Of a stretch of 64,000 nt of DNA, positions 2,449 through 18,069 are shown one piece after another. The notes under the pieces were generated by a model. That model ran no database searches. It worked only from the letters and a program-made list of their open reading frames with translations, and had not been told where the DNA came from. A program made the translations under genes and the position numbers. The DNA comes from Propionivibrio sp. (GTDB lineage Bacteria > Pseudomonadota > Gammaproteobacteria > Burkholderiales > Rhodocyclaceae): the NCBI RefSeq assembly GCF_029255185.1, contig NZ_JAPUVO010000132.1, positions 1-64,000 on the forward strand. The letters are read 5' to 3'. The stretch's first letter is position 1, and each line of letters starts with the position of its first letter.

Positions 2449-3861
2449 ATGAGTCTGCATCGCACGCTGCTGGGGGTCGCCGTGGCCCTAGCCATCGTTT
2501 CCGCACACGCCGAAACCATTCGCGTCGCCATCGGCACGCAGGATACGACCATCAACTGCGCCACCGGCGGCCTGTTGATCCGCGAACTCAAGTTGCTCGA
2601 CAAGTACCTGCCGCACGACGGCAAGTACAAGGACGTGAGCTACGACGTGCAGTGGAAGAACTTCACTTCGGGCGCACCGCTGACCAACGAGATGGTCGCC
2701 GACAAGCTCGACATCGGTTCGATGGCCGATTTCCCCGGTTCGGCCAATGCCGCCGCCTTCCAGAAAGCCGGCAAGAAGAGCGTGTTCATTACCGTGCTCT
2801 CGGGTAGCACCCTGGGCAGTGGCAACGGCATCGTCGTGCCCAAGGACTCGCCGGTTACCTCGATCTCGGAGCTCAAGGGCCGGACCATCTCGGTGCCCTT
2901 CGCCTCGACCGCGCACGGCATGCTGTTGCGTGCCGTCGCCGCCCAGGGTTGGGATCCGGACAAGGACGTCAACATCATCACCCAGGCCCCCGAGGTCGCT
3001 GGTCCGGCATTGCAGGCCGGCAAGGTCGAGGCCCACGCCGATTTCGTTCCGTTCGCCGAGCTCTTTGTCCATCGCGGTTTCGCGCGCAAGATCTTTGACG
3101 GTTCGCAAGCCAACGCGCCGACCTATCATGGCACGCTGGCCAATTCGGCCTTTGCCGAGAAATACCCGGAGATCGTCGTCGCCTTCCTGCGCGCGGCGAT
3201 CGAGGCCGAAAAACTGATCGCTGCCGATCCCGAGAAATACAGCGAGCTGATCGAAAAGGTCACCGGCATCGAAGCGCCGGTGAATTATCTCTACCACGGG
3301 CCGCTCGGCTTGCAGACCCGCAGCTTTGCCTGGAAACCAGAATATCGGCAGGCACTGCAAACGTCGATCGACACCTTGAAATTGCTGCGTCGCACCGATG
3401 CCGATATCGAAGCCACTCGCGTCATCGACGATCGCTACCTGCGCGAGGCGTTCAAGCAGTCGAGCCTCAATTATGACGCGGCGCTCAAGAACGATGGCAA
3501 GCATCCGCTCAAGGCCAACGACCACCTGACCGGCAAGCCGATCACCGACACCCGGCGCGTCGCCGGCGTCTGGGTGCAGGGCGAGCCCAAGGTACGCCAC
3601 TACGCCAGCGTCGAGTCGGCCTTCAGCGACCTGCGCAAGATTGAGGCCTCGGGCAAGAGCGCACGCGCCGTCTATGTGCACGACCTGATCCACCGCATCA
3701 AGCTGCTGGCGCCGCAGTCGTATTTCGCCAGCGACGCCAGTGGTCAGCTCAGCGCCTTCCTGCAGAAGGACGCTGCGGCGGCCTATGCCAGCGCCAACAA
3801 GGGAAAACTGCTCGACTATGCGGCGCTGCGCTCGGGATCGGCCAAGCTGGCTGCCAACTAA
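2449..3861 (+). CDS. NitT/TauT-type ABC transporter substrate-binding protein with NosL-like C-terminal part
   Basis: A 470-residue periplasmic binding protein. A Sec signal peptide (residues 1 to ~21, ending AHA) is followed by an SsuA/TauA/NrtA-type fold (about 22-360): TIRVAIGTQD, the GSMADFPG segment and SELKGRTISVPF are typical of sulfonate, taurine or nitrate binders. The family is normally 310-340 residues. The last ~100 residues (from VAGVWVQG) are extra and follow the pattern of NosL, the copper-binding accessory protein of nitrous oxide reductase: ASVESAFSDL, then YFASDASGQLSAF, then AAAAYASANKGKLLDY. The Cys and Met ligands of true NosL are not evident, so copper binding is not implied. 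ATG 2449 was chosen for its GGAGAAG ribosome-binding site and the signal peptide. It is the first gene of a cluster with permease and ATPase; substrate unknown. Confidence 0.85.
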   Translation: MSLHRTLLGVAVALAIVSAHAETIRVAIGTQDTTINCATGGLLIRELKLLDKYLPHDGKYKDVSYDVQWKNFTSGAPLTNEMVADKLDIGSMADFPGSANAAAFQKAGKKSVFITVLSGSTLGSGNGIVVPKDSPVTSISELKGRTISVPFASTAHGMLLRAVAAQGWDPDKDVNIITQAPEVAGPALQAGKVEAHADFVPFAELFVHRGFARKIFDGSQANAPTYHGTLANSAFAEKYPEIVVAFLRAAIEAEKLIAADPEKYSELIEKVTGIEAPVNYLYHGPLGLQTRSFAWKPEYRQALQTSIDTLKLLRRTDADIEATRVIDDRYLREAFKQSSLNYDAALKNDGKHPLKANDHLTGKPITDTRRVAGVWVQGEPKVRHYASVESAFSDLRKIEASGKSARAVYVHDLIHRIKLLAPQSYFASDASGQLSAFLQKDAAAAYASANKGKLLDYAALRSGSAKLAAN

Positions 3862-3881
3862 AGTCTACGGTGTAGAGCGCG

Positions 3882-4754
3882 ATGACCAGCCTGCAACCGT
3901 CCTTGTCCCTGGCCGGGTCTGTCGATACGGGCTCGCCCGATCTGTCGCCCGTCGTCGCATCCGCCGCGTCGGGCTGGGCCTGGGCCCGCCTGGCCTTTCA
4001 GGCGGGAGGGTTGCTGCTGTGCGTACTCATCTGGCACGTGCTGGCCAGCCACCGCGTGCCCCTCGGCGTGATCACTTTCGCCAATGTGCCGCCGCCGGCC
4101 GAGGTGCTGGCTACGGCCTGGGATCTGGCGCAATCGCCAAAACTTGGGCAACACCTCTACAGCAGCCTGCTGCGCATCTTCTTCGGTTTCGGTCTGGCGG
4201 CGCTGTTTGGCATCGGTCTCGGGCTGCTGATCGGGCGCCTGCGCTGGGCGCACGACGGCCTGTTGCCGCCGCTCGAAGTGTTGCGGCCGATTCCTGCGGT
4301 GGCGTGGATTCCGCTATCGATCCTGATGTTTCCCTCGTCCGAGGGCAGCATGATTTTCATCACCTTCATCGGCGCGCTGTTTCCGATCCTGCTCAACACC
4401 ATTCACGGCGTCGAAGGCGTCTCGCCGCGGCTGATCGCCTCGGCGCGCAGCCTTGGCTGCGGGCGTTGGTCCCTGTTTACCGAGGTGATCGCCCCTGGTG
4501 CTGCGCCGAGCATCGTCACCGGCCTGTCGATCGGTATGGGCACCTGCTGGTTTTGCCTGGTCACCGCCGAGATGATCTCGGGACAGTTCGGAATCGGCTA
4601 CTACACCTGGGAGTCCTACACGGTGCAGAACTACGCCGCAATCGTCGTCGGCATGCTGGTGATCGGCGCGCTGGGCATGGGTAGCAGCGCACTGATCAAC
4701 CGCTTCGGCAAGCTCCTGATGCCCTGGTATCAGCCGCAAGGAGGGAGATCGTGA
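3882..4754 (+). CDS. ABC transporter permease, NitT/TauT (SsuC/TauC) type
   Basis: Inner-membrane permease of 290 residues, about six hydrophobic segments, with the cytoplasmic EAA-like loop LIASARSLGCGRWSLFTEV followed by IAPGAAPSIVTGLSIGMG, which contacts the ATPase. The N-terminal ~35 residues are soluble and variable. It lies 20 bases after the binding-protein gene and overlaps the ATPase start by four bases (GTGA), so the three genes are translated together. The family imports nitrate, sulfonates, taurine or thiamine precursors; the substrate cannot be read from the permease. Confidence 0.92.
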   Translation: MTSLQPSLSLAGSVDTGSPDLSPVVASAASGWAWARLAFQAGGLLLCVLIWHVLASHRVPLGVITFANVPPPAEVLATAWDLAQSPKLGQHLYSSLLRIFFGFGLAALFGIGLGLLIGRLRWAHDGLLPPLEVLRPIPAVAWIPLSILMFPSSEGSMIFITFIGALFPILLNTIHGVEGVSPRLIASARSLGCGRWSLFTEVIAPGAAPSIVTGLSIGMGTCWFCLVTAEMISGQFGIGYYTWESYTVQNYAAIVVGMLVIGALGMGSSALINRFGKLLMPWYQPQGGRS

Positions 4755-5608
4755 GCTCGCCGGCAAGCGCGGCAACGCTGGGCCATATCGACATCGATCA
4801 CTTGCATATACACCTCGGTGAGCCTGGACAAAGCCTAGAAGTTGTGCACAACGTGTCGTTTACGGTGGCAGCCGGCGAGTTCGTCTGCCTGCTCGGTCCC
4901 TCCGGCTGCGGCAAGTCGACGCTGCTCGGCGCGCTGGCCGGCCATCTCGTGCCCAGTCACGGCAGCATCCGCGTTGATGGCCTGCCGATCAGCGGGCCGC
5001 ACCCCGAACGTGCACTGGTTTTTCAGCAGCACACGCTGTTTCCGTGGAAGCGGGTGGTCGATAACGTCGCCTTCGGCCTCAAGATGAAGGGAGTGGCTCG
5101 TGATCAGCGGCAGCGTCAGGCGCACGACCTGCTGAATCTGGTCGGTCTCGAAGGCTTCGAGAATCACTATCCGGCGCAACTCTCGGGCGGCATGCAGCAG
5201 CGCGTCGAAATCGCCCGCGTGCTGATCAACTATCCACGCGTGATGCTGATGGACGAGCCCTTCGGCGCGCTCGACGCGCAGACCCGACTGATGATGCAGG
5301 AGCACCTGCTCGAGGTGTGGTCGCGCATCCGCACCAGTATCGTCTTCATCACGCACGACATCGACGAGGCGCTTTTTCTGGCCGACCGCATCCTGGTCAT
5401 GAGTCCGCGTCCGGGGCGAATCATCGACGAACGCAGGCTCGGTTTTGGCCGCCCGCGCGATGGGTCGCTGGTCACTTCCGCGCGCTTCATCGAACTCAAA
5501 CGGCATTGCCTCGAACTGCTGCATCCCGGAGGCAAGCATCCGGCCTATCTCGAACGCCTGAGCCCGCTGGGCAAGGTACCGGCCAACGCATCTTCGTTCT
5601 CCGTCTGA
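4751..5608 (+). CDS. ABC transporter ATP-binding protein, NitT/TauT (SsuB/TauB) type
   Basis: Cytoplasmic ATPase of the importer, 285 residues. Walker A GPSGCGKST, Q-loop in LVFQQHTLFPWKRV, signature LSGGMQQRVEIARV, Walker B VMLMDEPFGALD and switch His in FITHDIDEAL are all present. The GTG start at 4751 overlaps the permease stop, which implies coupling. The C-terminal ~40 residues after the core (ELLHPGGKHPAYLERL) are the short tail usual for this subfamily. It lies five bases before the GntR-type gene. Confidence 0.94.
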   Translation: MSSPASAATLGHIDIDHLHIHLGEPGQSLEVVHNVSFTVAAGEFVCLLGPSGCGKSTLLGALAGHLVPSHGSIRVDGLPISGPHPERALVFQQHTLFPWKRVVDNVAFGLKMKGVARDQRQRQAHDLLNLVGLEGFENHYPAQLSGGMQQRVEIARVLINYPRVMLMDEPFGALDAQTRLMMQEHLLEVWSRIRTSIVFITHDIDEALFLADRILVMSPRPGRIIDERRLGFGRPRDGSLVTSARFIELKRHCLELLHPGGKHPAYLERLSPLGKVPANASSFSV

Positions 5609-5613
5609 GAAAA

Positions 5614-6219
5614 ATGAACGCGCCAACCACTCCCGCCGCCGTGCAGCGTGCCAGCCATCCGGTACCGCTCTACATTCAGATCAGGGAAGCGCTGCGTTCC
5701 CGAATCGTCGATGGCTCATACCACCAGAATGATCGCCTGCCGTCCGAAAGCGAGCTGATGCGGCACCACGGTGTCAGCCGCATCACCGTTCGTCAGGCGC
5801 TCGGTGACTTGGAGAGCGAAGGGCTGATTTTTCGCGTCGTCGGCAAGGGCTCGTTCGTCTTACGCCTCAAGCCGTTTGAGGAACTGACTCGCCTGCGGGG
5901 TTTCGGCGAAGCGATGTCGCGCCTGGGTTATGAAACACGTAACTGGGTCGAGAGTCTGGGGACCGTCGCTGCCACCCAGGCGGTCGCGCGCCGGCTCGGG
6001 CTGGCGCATGAGGAACTGGTGACGCGCGACATTTTCCTGATTATTGAGAATAACTACGGCATTCCCCTTGGGCAGGCCGAATTGAGTATCGAGGCCACCG
6101 TAGCCGACCCTGTTCTCGCCGGGCTGCTGGAGATGTCGGATGGAGCGCCGGTGCTGCGCATCGAACGGCTGAACCATAGCGCCGCCGGCGTTCCGCTCGA
6201 TTTCGAATACCTCTATTAA
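5614..6219 (+). CDS. GntR-type regulator with UTRA ligand domain, C-terminus cut by an in-frame stop
   Basis: Transcription factor of the HutC/FarR subgroup. A winged helix lies at residues ~17-90 (PLYIQIREALRSRI, LPSESELMRHHGVSRITVRQ, then GLIFRVVGKGSFV) followed by a UTRA effector domain. Translation stops at TAA 6217-6219 after FEYLY. The same frame continues YRGDAFRYQLRINRGG to a second TAA at 6265-6267, which is the normal end of a UTRA domain, so the stop is a nonsense change (TAT/TAC to TAA) removing the last beta-strand, about 16 residues. The shortened protein may be unstable. Position between importer and flavoprotein genes suggests it controls this cluster. Confidence 0.85.
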   Translation: MNAPTTPAAVQRASHPVPLYIQIREALRSRIVDGSYHQNDRLPSESELMRHHGVSRITVRQALGDLESEGLIFRVVGKGSFVLRLKPFEELTRLRGFGEAMSRLGYETRNWVESLGTVAATQAVARRLGLAHEELVTRDIFLIIENNYGIPLGQAELSIEATVADPVLAGLLEMSDGAPVLRIERLNHSAAGVPLDFEYLY

Positions 6220-6289
6220 CGTGGCGACGCCTTCCGCTACCAGTTACGCATCAACCGTGGCGGCTAAGCCGCAATTTATCAACCACTAA

Positions 6290-6457
6290 ACAGACCAGGA
6301 AAGCCGCTGGCAGAACCCGATCTATCGCGACGTCAGGCAGGCGGACGACGTGCGCCTGGAGTTCGGTCGGGAACATCAGCAACTGTTCAACGACTGGCTC
6401 GACGCCAGTTTCGAGAATGGTCTCTTGAAAACCCGGGTCGAGCCGGACCGGGAGTGA
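6290..6457 (+). pseudogene. Short open frame without a start, possible gene remnant
   Basis: Between the GntR gene and the flavoprotein gene a 55-codon frame opens after a TAA at 6287-6289 and closes at TGA 6455-6457. It has no ATG or well-placed alternative start, yet its composition is protein-like (RWQNPIYRDVRQADDVRLEF, later HQQLFNDWLDASFENGLL). I do not recognise the family. It may be the 3' remnant of a gene lost by deletion. Confidence 0.35.
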
Positions 6458-6520
6458 CGAAGCGGCGAGCTGTCGCTTGCCAGGCAACACCAATCCGCAT
6501 TGCAACCCGCAAGGAACAAA

Positions 6521-8248
6521 ATGAAAACAAGAAATATTGAAGTCGACGTGCTGGTCATCGGCGGCGGTACCGCCGGTCCGATGGCTGCCATCAAGGCCAG
6601 GCAGAAGTCGCCGCAGCTCAAGGTGCTGCTGCTCGACAAGGCTAACGTCAAGCGCGCCGGCGCCATCGCCGAGGGAATGGACAGCGTCAACAACGCGATC
6701 ATCCCCGGTTATGCGACGCCGGAGCAGTACGTCAAGGAAATCACCATCGCCAACGACGGCATTGTCAATCAGGCGGCGATCAATGCCTACGCCATCCGCA
6801 GCCACGACATGATCCGCGAACTCGATAGCTGGGGCGTCAAGTTCGAGAAGGACGAGACCGGCGAGTACGCGGTCAAGAAGGTGCATCACCTCGGTTCCTA
6901 CGTACTGCCGATGCCCGAAGGCTACGACATCAAGAAGCACATTTTCAAGAAGCTGCGCAAGTTCGGCGTCGAGGTCAGCAATCGCCTGATCACCACCCGC
7001 CTGCTGGTCGGCCGCGATGGGCGCATCGCTGGCGCTATGGCGCTCGACTCGCGCAGCGGCGAGTTCGTCGTCATCCGTGCCAAGGCGGTGGTGCTCTGTA
7101 CTGGCTCCGCGGGACGCCTCGGTCTGCCCAGTTCGGGCTACCTGTTCGGCACCTACGAGAACCCGACCAACGCCGGCGACGGCTACAGCATGGCCTATCA
7201 TGCCGGCGCCGAGCTGTCCGGAATCGAATGCTTCCAGATCAACCCGCTGATCAAGGACTACAACGGCCCGGCCTGCGCCTACGTGACCGGACCTTTCGGC
7301 GGCTATACGGTCAATGCCAGGGGCGAGCGCTTCATCAAGAGCGACTACTGGAGCGGCCAGATGATGCTCGAATTCTGGCGCGAACTCGAAGGCGGCAATG
7401 GCCCGGTCTACCTCAAGCTCGACCACCTGGCCGGCGAGACGGTAAGCAAGATCGAGAACGTGCTGCACGTCACCGAGCGCCCGTCGCGCGGGCTCTTTCA
7501 CGAAGGGCGCGGCGTCAATTACCGCTCCGACCTGGTCGAGATGCACATCTCGGAGATCGGCCTGTGCGGCGGCCACAGCGCGTCCGGCGTGTGGGTCGAC
7601 GAGAGCGCGCGCACCACGGTGCCCGGCCTCTACGCCGCCGGCGACCTGTGCAACGTCGCGCACAACTACATGCTCGGCGCCTTCGTCTTCGGCCAGATCG
7701 CCGGCGAGGACGCCGTCGACTATGTCGTCGGCAAAGAGCAGGCGCAGATCGACGAGGAGCAGATCGAGAGCGAACGTGAACGTGTCTTCGCGCCGCTGCT
7801 GCGCGCCGAAGGCATCCCGCCGACGCAGATCGAATACAAGCTGCGGCGCATGGTCAATGACTATCTGCAGCCGCCAAAGGTGACCAGCAAGATGGAGATC
7901 GGCCTGCAGCGCTTCGCCGCGATTGGTGAGGATCTCAAACAGATGAAGGCCAACAATCCGCACGAGCTGATGCGCGCGATGGAGGTCTACGCCATCCTCG
8001 ACTGCGCCGAAATTGCGGCGATCGCCTCGCTCTACCGTACCGAAAGTCGCTGGGGGCTCTACCATTACCGCCCCGACTTCGAGGAACGCAACGACCAGGA
8101 CTGGTTCGTCTTCGTCGAAGTGAAGAAGGGCGCCGACGGCCGTCCTCAATGCTTCACTCGCCCGGTGCCGCCCTACATCTACCCGCTCGACGAAAACGAG
8201 CGCGATGCCTACAGCAAAATGCGCGTCGACACGCCGCTGGCGGCCTGA
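6521..8248 (+). CDS. AprA-like FAD-dependent oxidoreductase (fumarate reductase/adenylylsulfate reductase flavoprotein family)
   Basis: A 575-residue flavoprotein. The FAD-binding Rossmann motif DVLVIGGGTAGPMAAIKAR is at residues ~8-27. KRAGAIAEGMDSVNNAI follows the AprA pattern rather than SdhA/FrdA (no SdhA-type covalent-flavin His motif). The C-terminal FAD signature TVPGLYAAGDLCNVAHNYMLGA is clear. It is slightly shorter than dissimilatory AprA (~610-660). An AprB-like ferredoxin gene follows 13 bases downstream, as in AprBA, but no sat, hdr or qmo genes are in view, and the setting is an ABC importer operon. I infer a redox enzyme acting on the imported compound, with electrons exchanged through the ferredoxin. 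ATG 6521 was chosen for its AAGGAA site. True APS reductase is possible but less likely. Confidence 0.85.
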   Translation: MKTRNIEVDVLVIGGGTAGPMAAIKARQKSPQLKVLLLDKANVKRAGAIAEGMDSVNNAIIPGYATPEQYVKEITIANDGIVNQAAINAYAIRSHDMIRELDSWGVKFEKDETGEYAVKKVHHLGSYVLPMPEGYDIKKHIFKKLRKFGVEVSNRLITTRLLVGRDGRIAGAMALDSRSGEFVVIRAKAVVLCTGSAGRLGLPSSGYLFGTYENPTNAGDGYSMAYHAGAELSGIECFQINPLIKDYNGPACAYVTGPFGGYTVNARGERFIKSDYWSGQMMLEFWRELEGGNGPVYLKLDHLAGETVSKIENVLHVTERPSRGLFHEGRGVNYRSDLVEMHISEIGLCGGHSASGVWVDESARTTVPGLYAAGDLCNVAHNYMLGAFVFGQIAGEDAVDYVVGKEQAQIDEEQIESERERVFAPLLRAEGIPPTQIEYKLRRMVNDYLQPPKVTSKMEIGLQRFAAIGEDLKQMKANNPHELMRAMEVYAILDCAEIAAIASLYRTESRWGLYHYRPDFEERNDQDWFVFVEVKKGADGRPQCFTRPVPPYIYPLDENERDAYSKMRVDTPLAA

Positions 8249-8261
8249 GGAGAAAGAGAAC

Positions 8262-8495
8262 ATGACTACCTACGAGACCCGCGGCCTGGTCAACATCATT
8301 GTCGATCCGGGCAAATGCATCGCCGAGAAAGGCTGCCGCGTCTGCATCGACGTCTGCCCGACCGACATCCTGATCCTCGACCTGGGCAACGGCAAGGTGC
8401 GCATGGCCTACGACGAATGCTGGTATTGCCTGCCGTGTCAGCACGATTGCCCGACCCAGGCGATCCGCGTCGAAATTCCCTACCTGCTGCGTTGA
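8262..8495 (+). CDS. AprB-like ferredoxin, two [4Fe-4S] clusters
   Basis: A 77-residue iron-sulfur protein. Two cluster motifs are visible: CIAEKGCRVCIDVCP (irregular spacing C-x5-C-x2-C-x3-CP) and CWYCLPCQHDCP (C-x2-C-x2-C-x3-CP). AprB begins the same way but has a longer C-terminal tail that wraps around AprA; that tail is missing here. It follows the flavoprotein gene with a GAGG ribosome-binding site, so it is the probable electron carrier or small subunit of that enzyme. It is eight bases from the HEAT-repeat gene. Confidence 0.88.
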   Translation: MTTYETRGLVNIIVDPGKCIAEKGCRVCIDVCPTDILILDLGNGKVRMAYDECWYCLPCQHDCPTQAIRVEIPYLLR

Positions 8496-8503
8496 GCGAG
8501 AAG

Positions 8504-9436
8504 ATGACCCAACTTGACCCCGACATCCAGGCGGCACTGCCGCTGTTGAACAGCGACGATGCCGCCGTGCGGCGCATCGCGCTGCTTGGCCTTGTCGATT
8601 ACGCTACCGAACATCCCGATCTCTTTATCACGGCTAGCCGCGACGCCGATCCGGGCGTCCGCCTCGAAGCCGCGCGGGCGCTCGAAGGCCAGCCCGACGC
8701 TGGTGCCGTCGACGCGCTCATCGACCTGCTGGTCGACCCCGACGCGGTAGTGCGTGCCGCCGCCGCGCTCTCACTCTCGGAACTGCTCGACGGGCAGGCA
8801 GCGCCGGTTCTGCTGCGCCGCTTCGCCGCTGCTGCGCCGCTGGCGCGCGCCGGAATCCTCGGCGGATTGCGCAAGCTGCGGCAGCCGCAGGCCTTGCCGC
8901 TGGCGCTGCAGAGCCTCGACGATGAACTGGCCGCCGTCCGCCGAGAGGCGGTCGGCGTCCTCGGCTACCTCAAGGAGAGCCAGGCACTGCCGCAACTCGC
9001 GCAGCGCGCGAGCAGCGACCCCGAGCCGGCGATCCGTCTGGCGGCCGTTGGCGCTCTGGCTTACGCCACCGACGCGTCGGTGCTGCCGGCCTTGCTCGCC
9101 GCGCTGGCCGACAATGACTGGCAGGTCCGCCAGGAAGCCGCCGTCACCCTCGGCAAGTTGCTGCTGCCGGGCGCCGCCGATGGCCTGATCGCCGCGCTGG
9201 CCGACCCGAGCTGGGAAGTGCGCCTGAAGGCAGCGGGTGTTCTCGGCAAGTTGCGCGAGCCACGCGCGGTCGCCGGTCTGGTCGAGGCCATGGGACATCC
9301 GGTCAGCAACCTGCGCAAGGAGGCCGCCGGGGCGCTCGCTGCGATCGGCGGTCATTCGGCGTTCGTCGCGCTGACCGTCGCGCTCGACGATCCTGACGTT
9401 GAAGTGCGCAAGATTGCCGAGCGCCACCTTGGCTGA
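8504..9436 (+). CDS. HEAT/PBS-lyase-type repeat protein
   Basis: A 310-residue all-helical repeat protein. About nine HEAT-like units are visible, each with the pattern DPDxxVRxxAAxALGxL (for example DPDAVVRAAAALSLSEL, DNDWQVRQEAAVTLGKLL, DPSWEVRLKAAGVLGKLR). There is no signal peptide or membrane segment, so it is cytoplasmic. Such repeats usually serve as scaffolds. Between a ferredoxin gene and a membrane iron-sulfur protein gene, a role in assembling the soluble enzyme on the membrane subunit is a reasonable inference. Its end overlaps the next gene by 38 bases if that gene starts at 9399. Confidence 0.88.
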   Translation: MTQLDPDIQAALPLLNSDDAAVRRIALLGLVDYATEHPDLFITASRDADPGVRLEAARALEGQPDAGAVDALIDLLVDPDAVVRAAAALSLSELLDGQAAPVLLRRFAAAAPLARAGILGGLRKLRQPQALPLALQSLDDELAAVRREAVGVLGYLKESQALPQLAQRASSDPEPAIRLAAVGALAYATDASVLPALLAALADNDWQVRQEAAVTLGKLLLPGAADGLIAALADPSWEVRLKAAGVLGKLREPRAVAGLVEAMGHPVSNLRKEAAGALAAIGGHSAFVALTVALDDPDVEVRKIAERHLG

Positions 9437-10799
9437 AAGTGTTGCCCAGAGCGCGGCAACCAGCGGGACCGCCGCAGGAATGCGGTCGGTAGTGCGCCCG
9501 ATAAACGTGCTGCGGCTACCGGCACCGCCTTCGCTGCAGGCGCTCGGCGATTTTCTGCAACGTCGGCAGACGCTCGTCCTGCGCATTCAGTGGGCGTTCG
9601 CCGCGCTCTACGCCTTTTTGCTGATCGGGCCGGTCGTGCTACCGCCTCCGCTGGCACAGGCCGGCGTTTTCGACAGCCTGGCGCGCTTTGCCGAAGCGCT
9701 GTTCTGGGGCATCTGGTGGCCGGGTGTGCTGCTCGCAACGCTGCTCTTCGGGCAACTCTGGTGTGGCGTTCTGTGTCCCGATGGCATGCTCACCGAATTC
9801 GCCAGCCGCCACGGCAAGGGCGCAAAGATCCCCGCCTGGCTGCGCTGGTCGGGCTGGCCGATGCTCGGCTTCAGTCTGCTGATCGTCTACGAGCACCTGA
9901 CCGACGCCTACCGCTCGCCGAACGCGACCCTGGCGCTGCTCGGCGGCGCCAGCCTGCTGGCCATCGTTACCGGTACACTGGTCGGTCGCAGCAAGCGCGT
10001 CTGGTGCCGTTACCTCTGCCCGCTGGCCAATGTCTTCTCCTTGCTCTCGCGCTGCGCGATCTTCCATTTCCGTGTTGACCGCGAGGCCTGGGATAGTGCA
10101 CCGCGCCTGCCGCGCTCCCAGGCGAGGGCGGTCGATTGTCCGCTGCTGCTTGACGTGCGGCGCCTGCGCAGCAATGAAAAATGCAATATGTGCGGGCGCT
10201 GCAGCGGTCACCGCAACGCCGTGCAGCTCGCCCTGCGGCAGCCGGGCGGCGAGATTGCGGCGCTCGGCGCAGGGCAGGGCGAAGCCCGGCGCTGGGAGGC
10301 GCTGGTCATCGCCTTCGTGCTCATCGGACTCTCTTTTGGCGCGCTGCACTGGCGCGGCAGTCCGTGGCATGCAGCGCTCGGTGTCGCGCTGCAAGGCTGG
10401 ACGCCGTGGACGAGCGCCGCGCTCGCCATCTTGCTGCCGGCGCTGCTCATCGGCAGCGGCGTCGCGCTGCTTCTGCTGCTGGCCGGCGCCGGTTCGCTGC
10501 AACGCAGTGTCCGCCTGGCCTATGGATTGATTCCGCTGGCCGGCATCGGTCTTTTCGTCGGCTCGCTCGAATACTCGCTGGGCATTTTGGCGCGCGAAGG
10601 GCTGGCGCTCGGTCACCTGCTGCCGACCTTGCGCGCCGCCGTCCTGCTGCCGGCGCTGATCTGGAGCGGCGCGCTCGGCTGGCTGCAATTGCGCGGCGAG
10701 ATCATCGCGCCATGGTGCAGGCATGGGGCCCTAGTCATCTATTTGCTGACCGCCGCCTTGCTCGGCGGGTGTTACCAGATAGTACCGTTTCCCTTGTAA
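9399..10799 (+). CDS. NapH/NosR/CcoG-like membrane iron-sulfur protein
   Basis: A polytopic inner-membrane protein of up to 466 residues. Hydrophobic segments alternate with cytoplasmic Cys motifs: CGVLCPDG, WCRYLCPL and CNMCGRC. The first two are the paired CxxxCP motifs of NapH/NosR-type quinol-linked electron-transfer proteins; the last may complete a [4Fe-4S] site. After these, four or more further hydrophobic segments follow to the end (residues ~300-466), more than in NapH. The start is uncertain: ATG 9399 lies inside the HEAT gene; ATG 9480 (MRSVVRPINVL) is an alternative. As the last gene of the cluster it probably passes electrons between the quinone pool and the ferredoxin/flavoprotein pair. 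Confidence 0.82.
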   Translation: MKCARLPSATLAESVAQSAATSGTAAGMRSVVRPINVLRLPAPPSLQALGDFLQRRQTLVLRIQWAFAALYAFLLIGPVVLPPPLAQAGVFDSLARFAEALFWGIWWPGVLLATLLFGQLWCGVLCPDGMLTEFASRHGKGAKIPAWLRWSGWPMLGFSLLIVYEHLTDAYRSPNATLALLGGASLLAIVTGTLVGRSKRVWCRYLCPLANVFSLLSRCAIFHFRVDREAWDSAPRLPRSQARAVDCPLLLDVRRLRSNEKCNMCGRCSGHRNAVQLALRQPGGEIAALGAGQGEARRWEALVIAFVLIGLSFGALHWRGSPWHAALGVALQGWTPWTSAALAILLPALLIGSGVALLLLLAGAGSLQRSVRLAYGLIPLAGIGLFVGSLEYSLGILAREGLALGHLLPTLRAAVLLPALIWSGALGWLQLRGEIIAPWCRHGALVIYLLTAALLGGCYQIVPFPL

Positions 10800-12485: not shown

Positions 12486-14198
12486 CTACGGTGATATCTG
12501 TTGCAGAAGTTCCATAGCGCGCCGCTGTTTCGCGTTTGCGGTGGTGAGGATAGCGAAGCTTGGTGTATCTCCAGCGGCCATCGGCGTTCGGCAGGTATTG
12601 CGGGTGATAGTGGCCAATTCAGCCATCAAGGTGGCAAAGCTATGAACCGGCGTGTCGTCGTCGAGGGTGTGGCGCGCTACCTTGGCCAAGGCGGCTTCGG
12701 AGCGTGTAGCCGGTGCCACGGGGTCGCGGACGGCCTTGGCTTGCTGGTCTGTATCGGCAAACATCAACTCGCGCCAAGCCTCACGCATGTGCCACTCGAC
12801 GTAGTACGCCAGCATGCACAAAAAGATATGCGAACGCACCCGATCGGCCAGCCGGTGATGAATCGGGCGCGCCTTCAGGTCAATGCTCTTGAACGAACGG
12901 AAGGCGAGCTCGACGTTGGCCAGCGACTTGTAGTTGCGCACACAGTCCGCGTCGCTCATCTGCGTGGCACAGACCGAGGTGCGAATGATGTAGATGCCGT
13001 CCAGCGCCGCTTCGGCGGCGATGCTGTCCGGCTTGCGTCGAAATGAGAATGCCGCCTCGTCAATGACCAGCTCGAAATGCTTGGACACCTTGTACTGGTT
13101 GACGACCTTGCCGACGCACACGCCGATGGCGTCCTGGCCCGTGAGTCTGGCGGCGACCACGCGCTTCTTGATTTTCTCAAGGTTCTTCTCGGTGGCGCAC
13201 AGCAAGGCTTCGCGCTTGTGGGCGCGTAGCGCTGCCAGCGGGGCATTGCGGCACGCCACCAGGCGTTCGCCGGGATAGTCCGGGGCGCTAAACTCGAACA
13301 GGTTGCGCTCATCAAACAAACCCAGTTGCAGTTGCCCCTGCTCGATCAGCGCACGGATCGAACCGCTCTTGAGCGTCGTGATCCAGTCAAAGCCTTCGTT
13401 TCCCTGCATCGCATCGATGGCCTTTTGCGAGATCATCCCCCGGTCGCCAACCATGACCATTTGCTCAATACCAAACTCAGTGCGCAGCCGCTGCACTTCG
13501 GGCAGGAAGGTTGTACTGTCTGAAACATTGCCATCATGAACAGACACAGCCACCGGACACCCTCGGGCATTGGTCAGCAAGCCGTAGTTCGCCTGCAGCA
13601 GGCCGTGCTTGGCCAGCGGACAGGTGGTTCCCTCGAAGTAACTGGAGGAGAGGTCGTAGAGCACCAGACCACCTTCGCGCAAATGGCGCGCCGCAAGCTT
13701 CTTCTCGATGCGGCCTTGGTGCGTCAACAACCAGTCCATTGCCGCGTACAGATCGTCCTCGCTGGCGTCCGCGACCGCAAAATCCTCGGCCAGCGTCGTC
13801 GTGTGCCACGTGCGGGTGGTGGCCAATTTAGTTTGTGGGCCGACGATGCGCGAGGCGACCATGGCCAGCACCAGATCACGTTCGCGGCACGGCTTGGCAG
13901 CGATCAGCGACGCGAACCCGAGGCGCTGCATCGCGGTGGCCGCCGCGTGCACATGACCTTGCGCACGTGAGCGCGAAATCTCGAAAGCCTGTCCAATAGG
14001 GACGAACGTCTCGCCTTGCAGCGTGCGCCGAATGATGTCTACCAGCGCCTCGGGCAGATGCGACAGATTGCCCAGCGTCTCATTCTTTACCGTACCGCCT
14101 TCACGATAGCTGCGACGCAACAGATGCGTGCGATAGACCCGATCTTTGTACGTGCGGGTCGTGGTGACGACATGAGCGGTTCCAGTACGTGTAGACAT
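12486..14198 (-). mobile_element. IS1634-family (IS4-superfamily) transposase, apparently intact
   Basis: A 570-residue DDE transposase. The N-terminal YREGGTVKNETLGNLSHLP stretch and length are typical of IS1634. The DDE core shows LVLYDLSSSYFEGTTCP (first Asp), MVMVGDRGMISQKAID (second Asp) and, near the C-terminus, NVELAFRSFKSIDLKARPIHHR with the catalytic Glu region. No frameshift or internal stop. ATG 14198 is used; GTG 14204 is possible. I could not identify matching terminal inverted repeats or a target duplication in the flanks (about 12400-12486 and 14199-14300), so the element ends are not set. It lies between asnS and the MFS-acyltransferase gene. Confidence 0.9.
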
Positions 14199-14315
14199 AA
14201 GCACAGATTAGGAAATTAATTGACGTGCGTCAATAATTTTTAGTGACTACAAATAGAAACAAAAATTCCTCGCCAAACAGTATTCTCGGAAACCACATGG
14301 CGTCCCTGTGCGAAC

Positions 14316-16223
14316 TTACTTCAGGTCACCGCGCAAATCAGCAACCCGCTGTTGCAGGTATTCCGGCGTCGCCGCTTCCGGCGCTACCGGCTCGCCAACA
14401 TACAGCCCGATCTTCGCGAAAGGCCGCAGATTCGACGGCCTGCTCATTGCCGGACCGTTTTTACGGCTGAAAAAACTTCCCCACAATCCGCGCAAGGCCA
14501 TGGGCACAACAGGCACCGGCGTACGCGCCACGATACGCTGAACACCGGGACGGAAAGCCAGCAGCTCCCCGTTGTTGGTAATACCCCCTTCGGGAAAAAT
14601 GCCAATCAGGTCGCCGTTCTCAAGCGCACTAGCCACTTCGGCGAAAGCTTTCTCCATCAACGCCGCATCTTCCCTGGCGGGCGCAATCGGAATCGTTCGC
14701 ATGTGCCGAAAAATAAAGCCAATGAGCGGCATGCGGAAAATTCGGTGATCCATCACGAAACGGATCGGTCGCCGGCTGGCTGCGGCGACCACGATCGGGT
14801 CGACAAAGCTGACGTGGTTGCAGACCAACACCGCCGGCCCGTCGTGCGGTATATGCTCAAGCCCCTTCTGTTCCAGGCGATAGATCGAATGGATGAGCAG
14901 CCAGGCAAGAAAGCGCAGCATGAATTCCGGCACTAGGCTGTAGATGTAGATGGCGACCAGCGCGTTGCATAGCGCGGCGCAGCCAAACAGCAGGGGAATC
15001 GGCAGCCCGTTGCCGAGTGCGCCCGCCGCCGCAAGTGCGCCGATAACCATGAACAGCGCGTTGAGAATGTTGTTGGCAGCGATGATGCGCGCTCTATGCT
15101 CGGGGGTGCTGCGCAACTGGATCAGGACGTAGAGCGGGACGATGAAGAAACCGCCGAAAAGGCCCAGAGCGAAAAGGTCGAAGAGGACGCGCCAGGTCTC
15201 GTGCAAGCCAAGCAGGCTGCTCATCGCCAGCGGCGCGGCGGCTGGCAAAGTGGCGGGTGAGGAGAAGACCAGATCGAGGCCAAACAGTGTCAGGCCGATC
15301 GAGCCAAAGGGCACCAGGCCGATTTCAACGTGTTTGCCCGAAAGCTTCTCGCACAGCATCGACCCCAAGCCGATACCCACGGTAAAGGTGGCGAGCAGGA
15401 GGGTGACCGAACTTTCATCACCGCCCAGAACCTTCTTGGCATAAACCGGAAACTGGGCCAGAAACAGCGCCCCGTAGAGCCAGAACCAGGAGATGCCGAG
15501 AATCGATAGAAATACGGTGCGATTCTGGCGAGCAAAGCCAATATTGCGCCAGGTCTCGGAGAATGGATTGAGGTTGACCGCCAGATTGGGAACAGGCGCC
15601 GGCGCCGGCGGAATGCCCAGACTGGCAAGAAAACCGGCGGCGGCAACCAGCAGCCCGGCAAAGGCCACCCAACCGGGGTGAGAACCAACACCGGCGAGCA
15701 AGCCGCCAGCCAGGGTGCCGATCAGAATGGCAACAAAGGTGCCGCTCTCGACCAGTGCATTGCCGCCCACCAGCTCTTCCTCGCGCAAATGCTGCGGTAG
15801 AATCGCATACTTAACTGGGCCGAACAGGGCCGAGTGCAAACCAAGCAGGAACAGTGCGCCGAGCAGCACGGTCAGGCTGTGCATGAAGAAGCCGAGCGCG
15901 GCGACGCCCATGATCGCCATCTCCAGCACTTTCACCAGGCGTGCCAATTTCGCCTTGTCGATCTTGTCGGCCAGTTGCCCGGCGGTCGCCGAAAAAAGGA
16001 AAAAGGGAAGAATGAAAATCCCGGCTGCCAGATTGGTCAGCATCTCGGGCACCAATGTCGTCCAGCTCGCCGCCTGAAAGGTGAGCAGCACCACCAGCGC
16101 ATTTTTGAACAGATTGTCGTTGAAGGCGCCGAGAAACTGCGTGGCGAAAAATGGCGCAAAGCGACGGGTCTTGAGCAGGGAAAACTGCGAGTACTCGGTC
16201 TGCGATGTCGGTTTAGGACTCAT
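14316..16223 (-). CDS. MFS transporter fused to PlsC-type acyltransferase (LplT-Aas-like)
   Basis: A 635-residue fusion. Residues ~15-400 form a major facilitator (RFAPFFATQFLGAFNDNLFK start, about 12 membrane segments) like the lysophospholipid flippase LplT. Residues ~430-620 are a glycerolipid acyltransferase with the catalytic NHVSFVD (H-x4-D) and FPEGGITNNGEL motifs. E. coli has lplT and aas as two genes; here the AMP-ligase part of Aas is absent and the transporter is joined directly to the acyltransferase. It probably imports and re-acylates lysophospholipids at the inner membrane. ATG 16223 is preferred for AAAGG seven bases upstream; the frame is open further upstream into groEL but that part is shadow. 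Convergent spacing on the same strand after the groEL terminator. Confidence 0.9.
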   Translation of the reverse strand: MSPKPTSQTEYSQFSLLKTRRFAPFFATQFLGAFNDNLFKNALVVLLTFQAASWTTLVPEMLTNLAAGIFILPFFLFSATAGQLADKIDKAKLARLVKVLEMAIMGVAALGFFMHSLTVLLGALFLLGLHSALFGPVKYAILPQHLREEELVGGNALVESGTFVAILIGTLAGGLLAGVGSHPGWVAFAGLLVAAAGFLASLGIPPAPAPVPNLAVNLNPFSETWRNIGFARQNRTVFLSILGISWFWLYGALFLAQFPVYAKKVLGGDESSVTLLLATFTVGIGLGSMLCEKLSGKHVEIGLVPFGSIGLTLFGLDLVFSSPATLPAAAPLAMSSLLGLHETWRVLFDLFALGLFGGFFIVPLYVLIQLRSTPEHRARIIAANNILNALFMVIGALAAAGALGNGLPIPLLFGCAALCNALVAIYIYSLVPEFMLRFLAWLLIHSIYRLEQKGLEHIPHDGPAVLVCNHVSFVDPIVVAAASRRPIRFVMDHRIFRMPLIGFIFRHMRTIPIAPAREDAALMEKAFAEVASALENGDLIGIFPEGGITNNGELLAFRPGVQRIVARTPVPVVPMALRGLWGSFFSRKNGPAMSRPSNLRPFAKIGLYVGEPVAPEAATPEYLQQRVADLRGDLK

Positions 16224-16249
16224 GACGCGGCCTTTCATCAAGCCTTCGA

Positions 16250-16292
16250 TAAAAAGAACCCCCCCGCAGGATTCTGCCCGGCGGGGGGGTTC
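16250..16292 (-). terminator. Intrinsic terminator of groES-groEL
   Basis: A 12-bp stem (16256-16267 with 16281-16292; core GAACCCCCCCGC) with a 13-base loop lies about 50 bases after the groEL stop. On the minus strand it is followed by CTTTTTATC, giving the U-tract. Confidence 0.85.
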
Positions 16293-16344
16293 GGTGAGCG
16301 AATCGCAAGCAATTACGCCCAAACTGGCATGATCTGCCGGTTGA

Positions 16345-18069
<1,725 letters not shown>

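Follow-up and report, generated by a model that had tools for sequence, protein, structure and literature searches.

A recurring cassette of an ABC importer, an AprA-like flavoprotein, a ferredoxin and a HEAT-repeat protein in Propionivibrio sp.: a candidate system for reductive sulfite release

The DNA described here, referred to as the window, is 64,000 nucleotides long and corresponds to positions 1-64,000 of contig NZ_JAPUVO010000132.1 from Propionivibrio sp. (GCF_029255185.1). At 2449-10799 it contains a run of eight genes including a three-component ABC importer, a GntR regulator, a flavoprotein designated F, a ferredoxin and a HEAT-repeat protein, which are tentatively proposed to release sulfite reductively from a sulfonate taken up by the importer. 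In a preliminary description of this DNA, eight same-strand genes, several of them with overlapping or near-touching ends, had been reported, and all eight open reading frames were found on the + strand where it had placed them:

2449-3861, + strand: periplasmic binding protein (SBP), with an SsuA/TauA-like domain and a C-terminal NosL-like domain (about residues 355-460)
3882-4754, + strand: ABC permease, BPD_transp_1; NtrB/SaoP/SsuC-like by hidden Markov model (HMM), under all curated cut-offs
4751-5608, + strand: ABC ATPase, TauB-like by HMM, under the curated cut-off
5614-6219, + strand: GntR/UTRA regulator, shortened by a stop codon relative to its relatives
6521-8248, + strand: flavoprotein F, AprA/PAPS-reductase-like, FAD; NCBIfam NF006131, 1035 bits (cut-off 587)
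8262-8495, + strand: AprB-like ferredoxin with eight cysteines for two 4Fe-4S clusters
8504-9436, + strand: HEAT-repeat protein
about 9480-10799 (frame open from 9399), + strand: NapH-like membrane protein with two CxxxCP motifs and a CxxCxxC run

The permease and ATPase genes overlap by 4 bases, and the other gaps are 5 to 20 bases, except for about 300 bases between the GntR gene and F and about 43 bases ahead of the probable start of the membrane protein.

A lack of joint conservation of these genes, or a place of the flavoprotein within a clade of known function, had been set beforehand as refuting the idea, and neither was found. Recurrence in other genomes was analysed in two sets of loci, cited below by L numbers. 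The named loci are the best 80 of at least 589 confirmed F relatives and thus lean towards the kin of the window; neighbours were counted in them within 8 kb of F, by identity thresholds. The drawn set consists of the stretches surrounding F in 20 other genomes of a family and a class sample, chosen only for having F, and two of these carry an F identical to one of the named set (F of L168 and L179 is identical to F of L073 and L012). In the named loci, the ferredoxin and the HEAT protein were each identified near F in 79 of the 80, GntR in 74, the ATPase in 66, the permease in 62 and the SBP in 61; a DUF971/GBBH-like gene, which is not part of the eight-gene run in the window, is common in relatives (56), followed by FdxA (15), a flavoprotein of about 1200 amino acids (11) and the NapH-like gene (5). 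In the drawn genomes, ferredoxin, HEAT, permease and ATPase were present in 20 of 20 each, with permease and ATPase about 9 kb away from F in L169, while the SBP was present in 19, GntR in 18, FdxA in 10 and the NapH-like gene in 4. The cassette genes therefore recur together, and this broad joint conservation supports the coupling of an AprA-like flavoprotein to an importer, an AprB-like ferredoxin and a HEAT protein, as had been suggested. Of the single system of eight genes that had been envisaged, seven (the three importer genes, GntR, F, ferredoxin and HEAT) form the recurring cassette, and the membrane gene lies outside the conserved core.

F itself was found in 17 of 150 genomes of the family sample and in 5 of 274 of the class sample, the genome of the window being counted in both. 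The cassette recurs in proteobacteria, cyanobacteria and actinobacteria, and cyanobacterial and rhizobial plasmids are among its carriers. By tblastn, F relatives were identified in 52 plasmid records, one of them a PAPS-reductase-like protein of Ilyobacter, and a distant blastn search gave no E. coli match. In Tsukamurella, F and HEAT are fused into a single protein of 893 amino acids, and the same fusion is described by the NCBIfam model NF010374, which is good evidence that HEAT, judged from these sequences, would work together with F. Several loci show additional genes. In Andreprevotia, a second, more distant FAD_binding_2 protein and a dicluster ferredoxin lie directly behind the cassette (L032:16591-18524). 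In Nostoc edaphicum (L098:8995-15150), two HAD hydrolases, a methyltransferase, GNAT and VOC genes are located between F and the ferredoxin, and a GNAT and an amidase gene come after, likewise in Methylocystis (L090). In L184 (7202-8526), SCO1/SenC and a cytochrome c gene lie between the importer and GntR-F.

F is labelled by NF006131 as a fumarate reductase/succinate dehydrogenase subunit. Its closest solved relatives are the alpha subunit of the flavin-dependent PAPS reductase (PAPSR) and then AprA, and the family is probably misnamed by NCBI. The AprA-type motif claimed for the flavoprotein in the preliminary description, KRAGAIAEGMDSVNNAI, is present at residues 44-60. In a tree of 41 proteins, 24 of them F rows, the deep branches are very long, and it was used solely to place F inside no known group. 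Twelve AprA proteins and the PAPSR-like L097 form one branch (100/100), and the Sdh/Frd-type proteins of the genome itself, NadB and another AprA-like protein form a second (96/99); no F lies within either, in line with the proposed placement outside clades of known function. The 24 F rows surround an unresolved node joining these two branches, so that F is not shown as one clade.

Since F is modelled with low confidence (mean pLDDT 66), the active site was read from alignments alone. Compared with AprA of A. fulgidus, Asn74 is kept as N57, whereas Trp234 corresponds to Tyr212, Arg265 to Leu243 and Gln145 to Val128. Trp234 and Arg265 have active-site roles in AprA, Arg265 being the proposed holder of sulfite. 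Y212, L243 and V128 are found in 89 of 90 rows, the exception being L097 of Ilyobacter (W, R and a gap), a PAPSR-like protein adjoining cysC and cysD. An arginine-rich stretch (R320, R323, R330 and R335, plus H327) is likewise present in 89 of 90 rows, and the His of the HYMMGG stretch of SdhA aligns with H342, present in 87 of 90. The role of Gln145 in AprA and the proposed flavin N5 chemistry are described in PMC10322725.

Several known enzymes were rejected as identities for F. It scores 181.8 bits against the dissimilatory AprA model TIGR02061 (cut-off 641.75), lies outside the AprA branch and has Trp234, Arg265 and Gln145 replaced; at E 1e-80 the AprA model has no match in the genome of the window, while 43 of 143 class genomes match. 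For a flavin PAPS reductase, the position of the catalytic Arg is Leu, and F is absent from the AprA/L097 branch. For SdhA/FrdA, the Sdh/Frd-type rows are on the other branch (96/99) and the partner of F is a 2x4Fe-4S ferredoxin, and L-aspartate oxidase (NadB) is on that same branch, which holds no F. A Pfam APS-reductase_C search was uninformative, as no control matched. In the F-bearing plasmid loci viewed, no APS kinase or ATP sulfurylase genes are annotated, other loci not having been searched for them, and no Sat, Qmo or Hdr genes are annotated in the same loci (L100 being unannotated), to which that search was confined.

For the SBP, TauA and SsuA were the best solved relatives in profile searches. 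With its structure model (mean pLDDT 84), SsuA and TauA were again found first, and the binders NrtA (nitrate), CmpA (bicarbonate), Thi5 and PqqT lower. The importer is under the curated sulfonate and taurine cut-offs (SBP against SsuA_fam, 125.9 compared with 163.5). According to PMC6906117, TauA holds the sulfonate group through Gln30 and through backbone contacts from Gly61, Gly79 and Thr132; its ligands for the amine are Glu106, Thr132 and Asp205. In the SBP, Gly61 corresponds to G75, and Ser131, which neighbours the sulfonate site, to S153; Gly79, a backbone contact, corresponds to A93, and Gln30 is beyond the reach of the alignment, although Q31 may stand for it. The fold and the aligned sulfonate-contact positions thus place the SBP with SsuA/TauA. 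The amine ligands Glu106 and Asp205 are replaced by N126 and H227, so that the taurine signature of TauA is absent. G75, S153, N126 and H227 are invariant in 16 sequences. Because the amine ligands are replaced and two sulfonate-site positions are kept, the binding site would best suit a sulfonate that lacks an ammonium group, isethionate or sulfoacetate for example. An organosulfur or sulfonate substrate, as had been suspected from the importer family and the AprA resemblance, is supported as the likeliest by the similarity of the SBP to TauA and SsuA.

The C-terminal 110 residues of the SBP form a NosL-like domain, which had been missed in the preliminary description. Against Pfam NosL (gathering 24), L093 scored 30.4 (5.5e-7), the window 22.8 and L029 23.2 (both about 1e-4), and the NosL chain 7og7 was matched at 5.5e-6 in one of two profile searches and not at 1e-5 in the other. 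The Cys pair of this domain is kept in one group of relatives (L093:2047-3453 was compared) and lost in the group of the window.

In the ferredoxin, all eight cysteines are kept in 89 of 89 rows. Its score with the AprB model is weak (30 bits, cut-off 136); an AprAB-type pairing, with an eight-cysteine AprB-like ferredoxin near F, was found across the loci. The source of electrons differs between lineages. Behind F, ferredoxin, HEAT and FdxA, Rnf genes were identified in three loci (L040, L183 and L184): in L184, two Rnf-Nqr subunits and RnfB-, RnfC-, RnfD- and RnfG-type genes lie in a row, and L183 and L040 have Rnf C/D/G/E matches. None were found in 38 control regions from the genomes of the drawn set; two of these regions are all N, leaving 36 readable, seven others are shorter than requested, and two further regions requested did not exist. 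The protein of about 1200 amino acids (11 of 80 named loci) carries a Pyr_redox_2 domain in the copy scanned, that of L033, which resembles PRK06567, a putative glutamate synthase beta/FNR-type fusion, under its cut-off; such a GltD-like protein may recall Nfn. A ferredoxin-NADP reductase (FNR) gene is located near F in two loci. In the window and its relatives, the NapH-like protein (30.3 bits, TIGR02163 cut-off 213) stands in place of these partners, and two Rnf-Nqr matches lie elsewhere in the genome of the window. The NapH-like protein, which had been regarded as a general part of the system, is confined to the close relatives of the window, and its gene is a lineage-specific addition rather than part of the conserved core. 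Since Rnf, GltD-like, FNR and NapH-like partners can all serve a low-potential ferredoxin, a reductive direction appears likelier for the F enzyme.

Sulfite exporters adjoin the cassette in several lineages. They were identified near it in Pseudanabaena, Leptolyngbya, Aquabacterium, an Acinetobacter plasmid, L019, L040 and L085; in two cyanobacteria, TauE and a YeiH-type/putative sulfate exporter lie downstream of it. In L172 and L174 the gene order is LysR, YeiH, TauE/SafE, GntR, F, and the YeiH of L174 (208 bits) is just under the NCBIfam cut-off of 233. YeiH was identified near F in 5 of 20 drawn loci, whereas the 36 readable control regions of those genomes contained none (Fisher 0.004); the YeiH count is unchanged with a cyanobacterial seed alone. 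In Salmonella, YeiH gives sulfite resistance according to the accessible part of PMC12880088. These exporters suggest sulfite as the product in several lineages; in the lineage of the window itself this product is putative.

Other sulfur-linked genes were found nearby. In the named loci, TauD was counted in 9, luciferase-type (LLM) seeds in 7, 6 and 1 and SfnB in 2, with no control from the same genomes; the 38 control regions, from other genomes than the named loci, gave TauD 0, LLM 2, FNR 1 and FdxA 1. A flank Pfam tally covered 185 of 187 proteins from 20 loci, two being omitted as cassette genes; the flank genes were predicted by a simple codon-usage caller, which put some of them on the wrong strand (L173, L175 and L176). 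The two family listings, limited to the first 25 of 86 and of 118, include Rnf and YeiH (PF03601, 1 and 2 members), as well as methionine sulfoxide reductases, rhodanese, Cys/Met PLP enzymes and FGE-sulfatase with 2 members each; these are plain counts that give no reading of enrichment.

The genome of the window is 99.99% complete. SsuD, TauD and PFL-like families had no match in it at 1e-3, while an E. coli control matched all three, and Xsc had no match over the cut-off. The cassette SBP is the sole NMT1_2 binding protein over the cut-off, and a NIR_SIR reductase of 575 amino acids is siroheme-type and under every curated cut-off, including that of CysI. Given a sulfonate as the imported substrate, F is the sole candidate seen for opening it, an Isr-type enzyme not having been searched for. 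The eight-gene run has a G+C content of 64%, compared with 56% for the preceding enolase gene and the following class II (D/K/N) tRNA synthetase gene, and F was not found in the three other genomes of the same genus listed; because of this difference and this absence, the run looks like an acquired island. In the GntR frame, a TAA at 6217 is followed by about 16 in-frame codons of the C-terminal motif of the family (6217-6267). The protein has 201 amino acids and is shorter elsewhere too, 77 of 79 GntR relatives having 241-273; the early stop may be decay or a sequencing error, which are indistinguishable here. Close behind the island, a DDE transposase gene lies on the opposite strand (12486-14204), and an MFS-acyltransferase fusion beside a Cpn60-family protein (14316-18000, both on the minus strand) are unusual neighbours.

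The best reading, held only tentatively and with reservation as to chemistry and substrate, is that the cassette serves sulfur acquisition by O2-independent reductive sulfite release from an imported small sulfonate. A sulfonate would be brought in by the TauA/SsuA-type importer and bound in F by the family-specific Arg cluster. Low-potential electrons would pass from the ferredoxin to the FAD of F, and the reduced flavin would then split off the sulfo group. This step may run through an FAD-N5-sulfite adduct, like the one proposed in APS and PAPS reductases. Sulfite would leave and then be assimilated or exported. HEAT may act as the scaffold, and quinol electrons would be delivered by the NapH-like protein in the relatives of the window. 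In relatives, DUF971 or Mrp may mature the 4Fe-4S clusters, by analogy with HCF101-type proteins.

A number of points weigh against this proposal. A plain alkanesulfonate is chemically hard, since a carbanion leaves poorly when a flavin attacks the sulfur, and a sulfate ester or thiosulfonate would be an easier substrate. The mechanism of AprA could not, from the alignment, be transferred unchanged, because the position of Arg265 is Leu243 in nearly all rows. Rnf and Nfn-type complexes are reversible, so that the partners do not fix the direction, and many carriers are aerobes (Acinetobacter, Variovorax, Methylobacterium). TauD- or SsuD-like genes lie near some loci. An SBP of this type is not near F in 19 of 80 named loci, some of them from short contigs. 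The exporter link is lineage-bound: for TauE or YeiH together, 5 of 20 drawn loci compare with 2 of 36 controls (Fisher 0.08), and the pooled count of 12 of 118 loci, which take in the PAPSR-like L097 and two pairs with identical F, is negative against 2 of 36 readable controls (Fisher 0.52). The five drawn YeiH cases may be a single event or arrangement, and the test loci were themselves among the sources of the TauE and YeiH profiles, which biases the counts in their favour. To these are added the lack of F in the three other same-genus genomes and the shortened GntR of the window.

The main rival, unlikely yet closest to the chemistry of APS and PAPS reduction, is that the bond which F breaks reductively, with sulfite as the product, joins an activated sulfo group to O, S or N (a sulfate ester, a thiosulfonate such as S-sulfocysteine, or a sulfamate). 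It agrees with the resemblance of F to PAPSR and AprA, and for the PAPSR of Methanothermococcus (MtPAPSR) an attack of N5 on sulfur with a nucleotide leaving group is proposed in the available part of PMC10322725. The electron partners and sulfite exporters fit it equally, and two flank proteins have an FGE-sulfatase domain (a broad, sulfatase-modifying-factor-like family). However, no sulfatase is among the flank families listed, the top 25 of 86 and of 118, and the SBP is most like the sulfonate binders TauA and SsuA. TauA/SsuA-type binding proteins can take up other sulfo compounds as well. A further alternative, regarded as improbable, is an oxidative desulfonation, in which F would take two electrons from the carbon beside the sulfo group and water would add, giving an aldehyde and sulfite, with the electrons passing via the ferredoxin to quinone (NapH-like), NAD(P) (FNR, GltD-like) or Rnf. 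While the wider succinate-dehydrogenase-like family to which F belongs, the match of H342 to the SdhA His and the NapH-like module of the window and its relatives all agree with such a direction, hydride removal from a carbon next to a sulfonate is unfavourable, and the Rnf and GltD-like partners with FdxA point to a low-potential ferredoxin, which would be needless for electrons going to quinone.

The cassette might also have nothing to do with sulfur, an explanation that we consider more improbable still: the importer would carry nitrate, bicarbonate or a vitamin precursor, and F would carry out flavin-based redox chemistry on that compound or on its cofactor. The ligands of NMT1-type binding proteins are diverse, as illustrated by NrtA, CmpA, Thi5 and PqqT in the fold search, but sulfonate binders lead both the fold and the profile matches, two positions of the sulfonate site are retained, and sulfite exporters together with TauD-, SsuD-, SfnB-like or sulfate-ABC genes are located nearby in several lineages. 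The name of NF006131 implies a genuine succinate dehydrogenase or fumarate reductase; for F this is disfavoured and highly improbable, as F is off the Sdh/Frd and NadB branch and has PAPSR and AprA as its best solved relatives, and as its partner is a 2x4Fe-4S AprB-like ferredoxin instead of an Sdh/Frd iron-sulfur protein, and membrane anchor subunits are lacking from the core.

As sources of sulfur, sulfonates are widespread, and few enzymes are known for O2-independent sulfite release from them. For taurine and isethionate, the known cleavage reactions given in the available part of PMC11423573 are O2-dependent (SsuD, TauD) or use a glycyl radical lyase, Xsc or a nitrogenase-like enzyme. No description of the cassette was found in the literature searched for it or for its chemistry, most subscription papers lying outside this search, and it is not described in the accessible portions of PMC6037834, PMC10433963, PMC8305402, PMC8557817 and PMC7661421. 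If reductive release from a sulfonate is correct, a common flavoprotein family would add another desulfonation route, hidden by the NCBI name 'fumarate reductase/succinate dehydrogenase', and a testable gene set would be available for sulfonate use by bacteria without SsuD, TauD, glycyl radical lyase, Xsc or nitrogenase-like enzymes, perhaps including that of the window. More doubtful, though possible, is that it constitutes a new desulfonating class: a flavin/iron-sulfur sulfonate reductase that draws on ferredoxin, has HEAT as its scaffold and comes with a sulfonate importer of its own. It would have spread by transfer across proteobacteria, cyanobacteria and actinobacteria, aerobes included, and would supply sulfur from sulfonates independently of O2 and with no radical, thiamine or nitrogenase chemistry.

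In comparison with known systems, the cassette resembles AprAB of A. fulgidus (1jnr/2fja) in the combination of an FAD flavoprotein with a 2x4Fe-4S ferredoxin, in the shared fold and in the retained Asn74 (N57), but differs from it by the importer, the HEAT partner and the lack of Trp234, Arg265 and Gln145 in F. The flavin PAPS reductase of Methanothermococcus (8a8o) is the best solved relative (253-282 bits) and has a similar length and an eight-cysteine ferredoxin partner, and its His aligns with H352 of F; unlike F with its Tyr and Leu, the PAPSR-like Ilyobacter row keeps Trp and Arg. With SsuABC and TauABC, the importer shares the SBP fold, two sulfonate-site positions and the permease and ATPase families, while the extra NosL-like domain, the replaced taurine amine ligands and a flavoenzyme partner instead of SsuD or TauD set it apart. 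The membrane protein of the window has the two CxxxCP motifs and Fer4_5 domains of NapH/MauN-type membrane ferredoxins, but reaches only about 30 bits compared with the NapH cut-off of 213. A precedent for the function proposed here is the isethionate reductase Isr (IsrBHDK) of R. capsulatus, a nitrogenase-like enzyme which, in the accessible part of PMC11423573, cleaves a sulfonate reductively with release of sulfite and whose genes lie beside tau/ssu ABC genes. The two would share reductive sulfonate cleavage for sulfur and an adjoining ABC importer, whereas Isr is nitrogenase-like and F is an FAD enzyme of the AprA superfamily.

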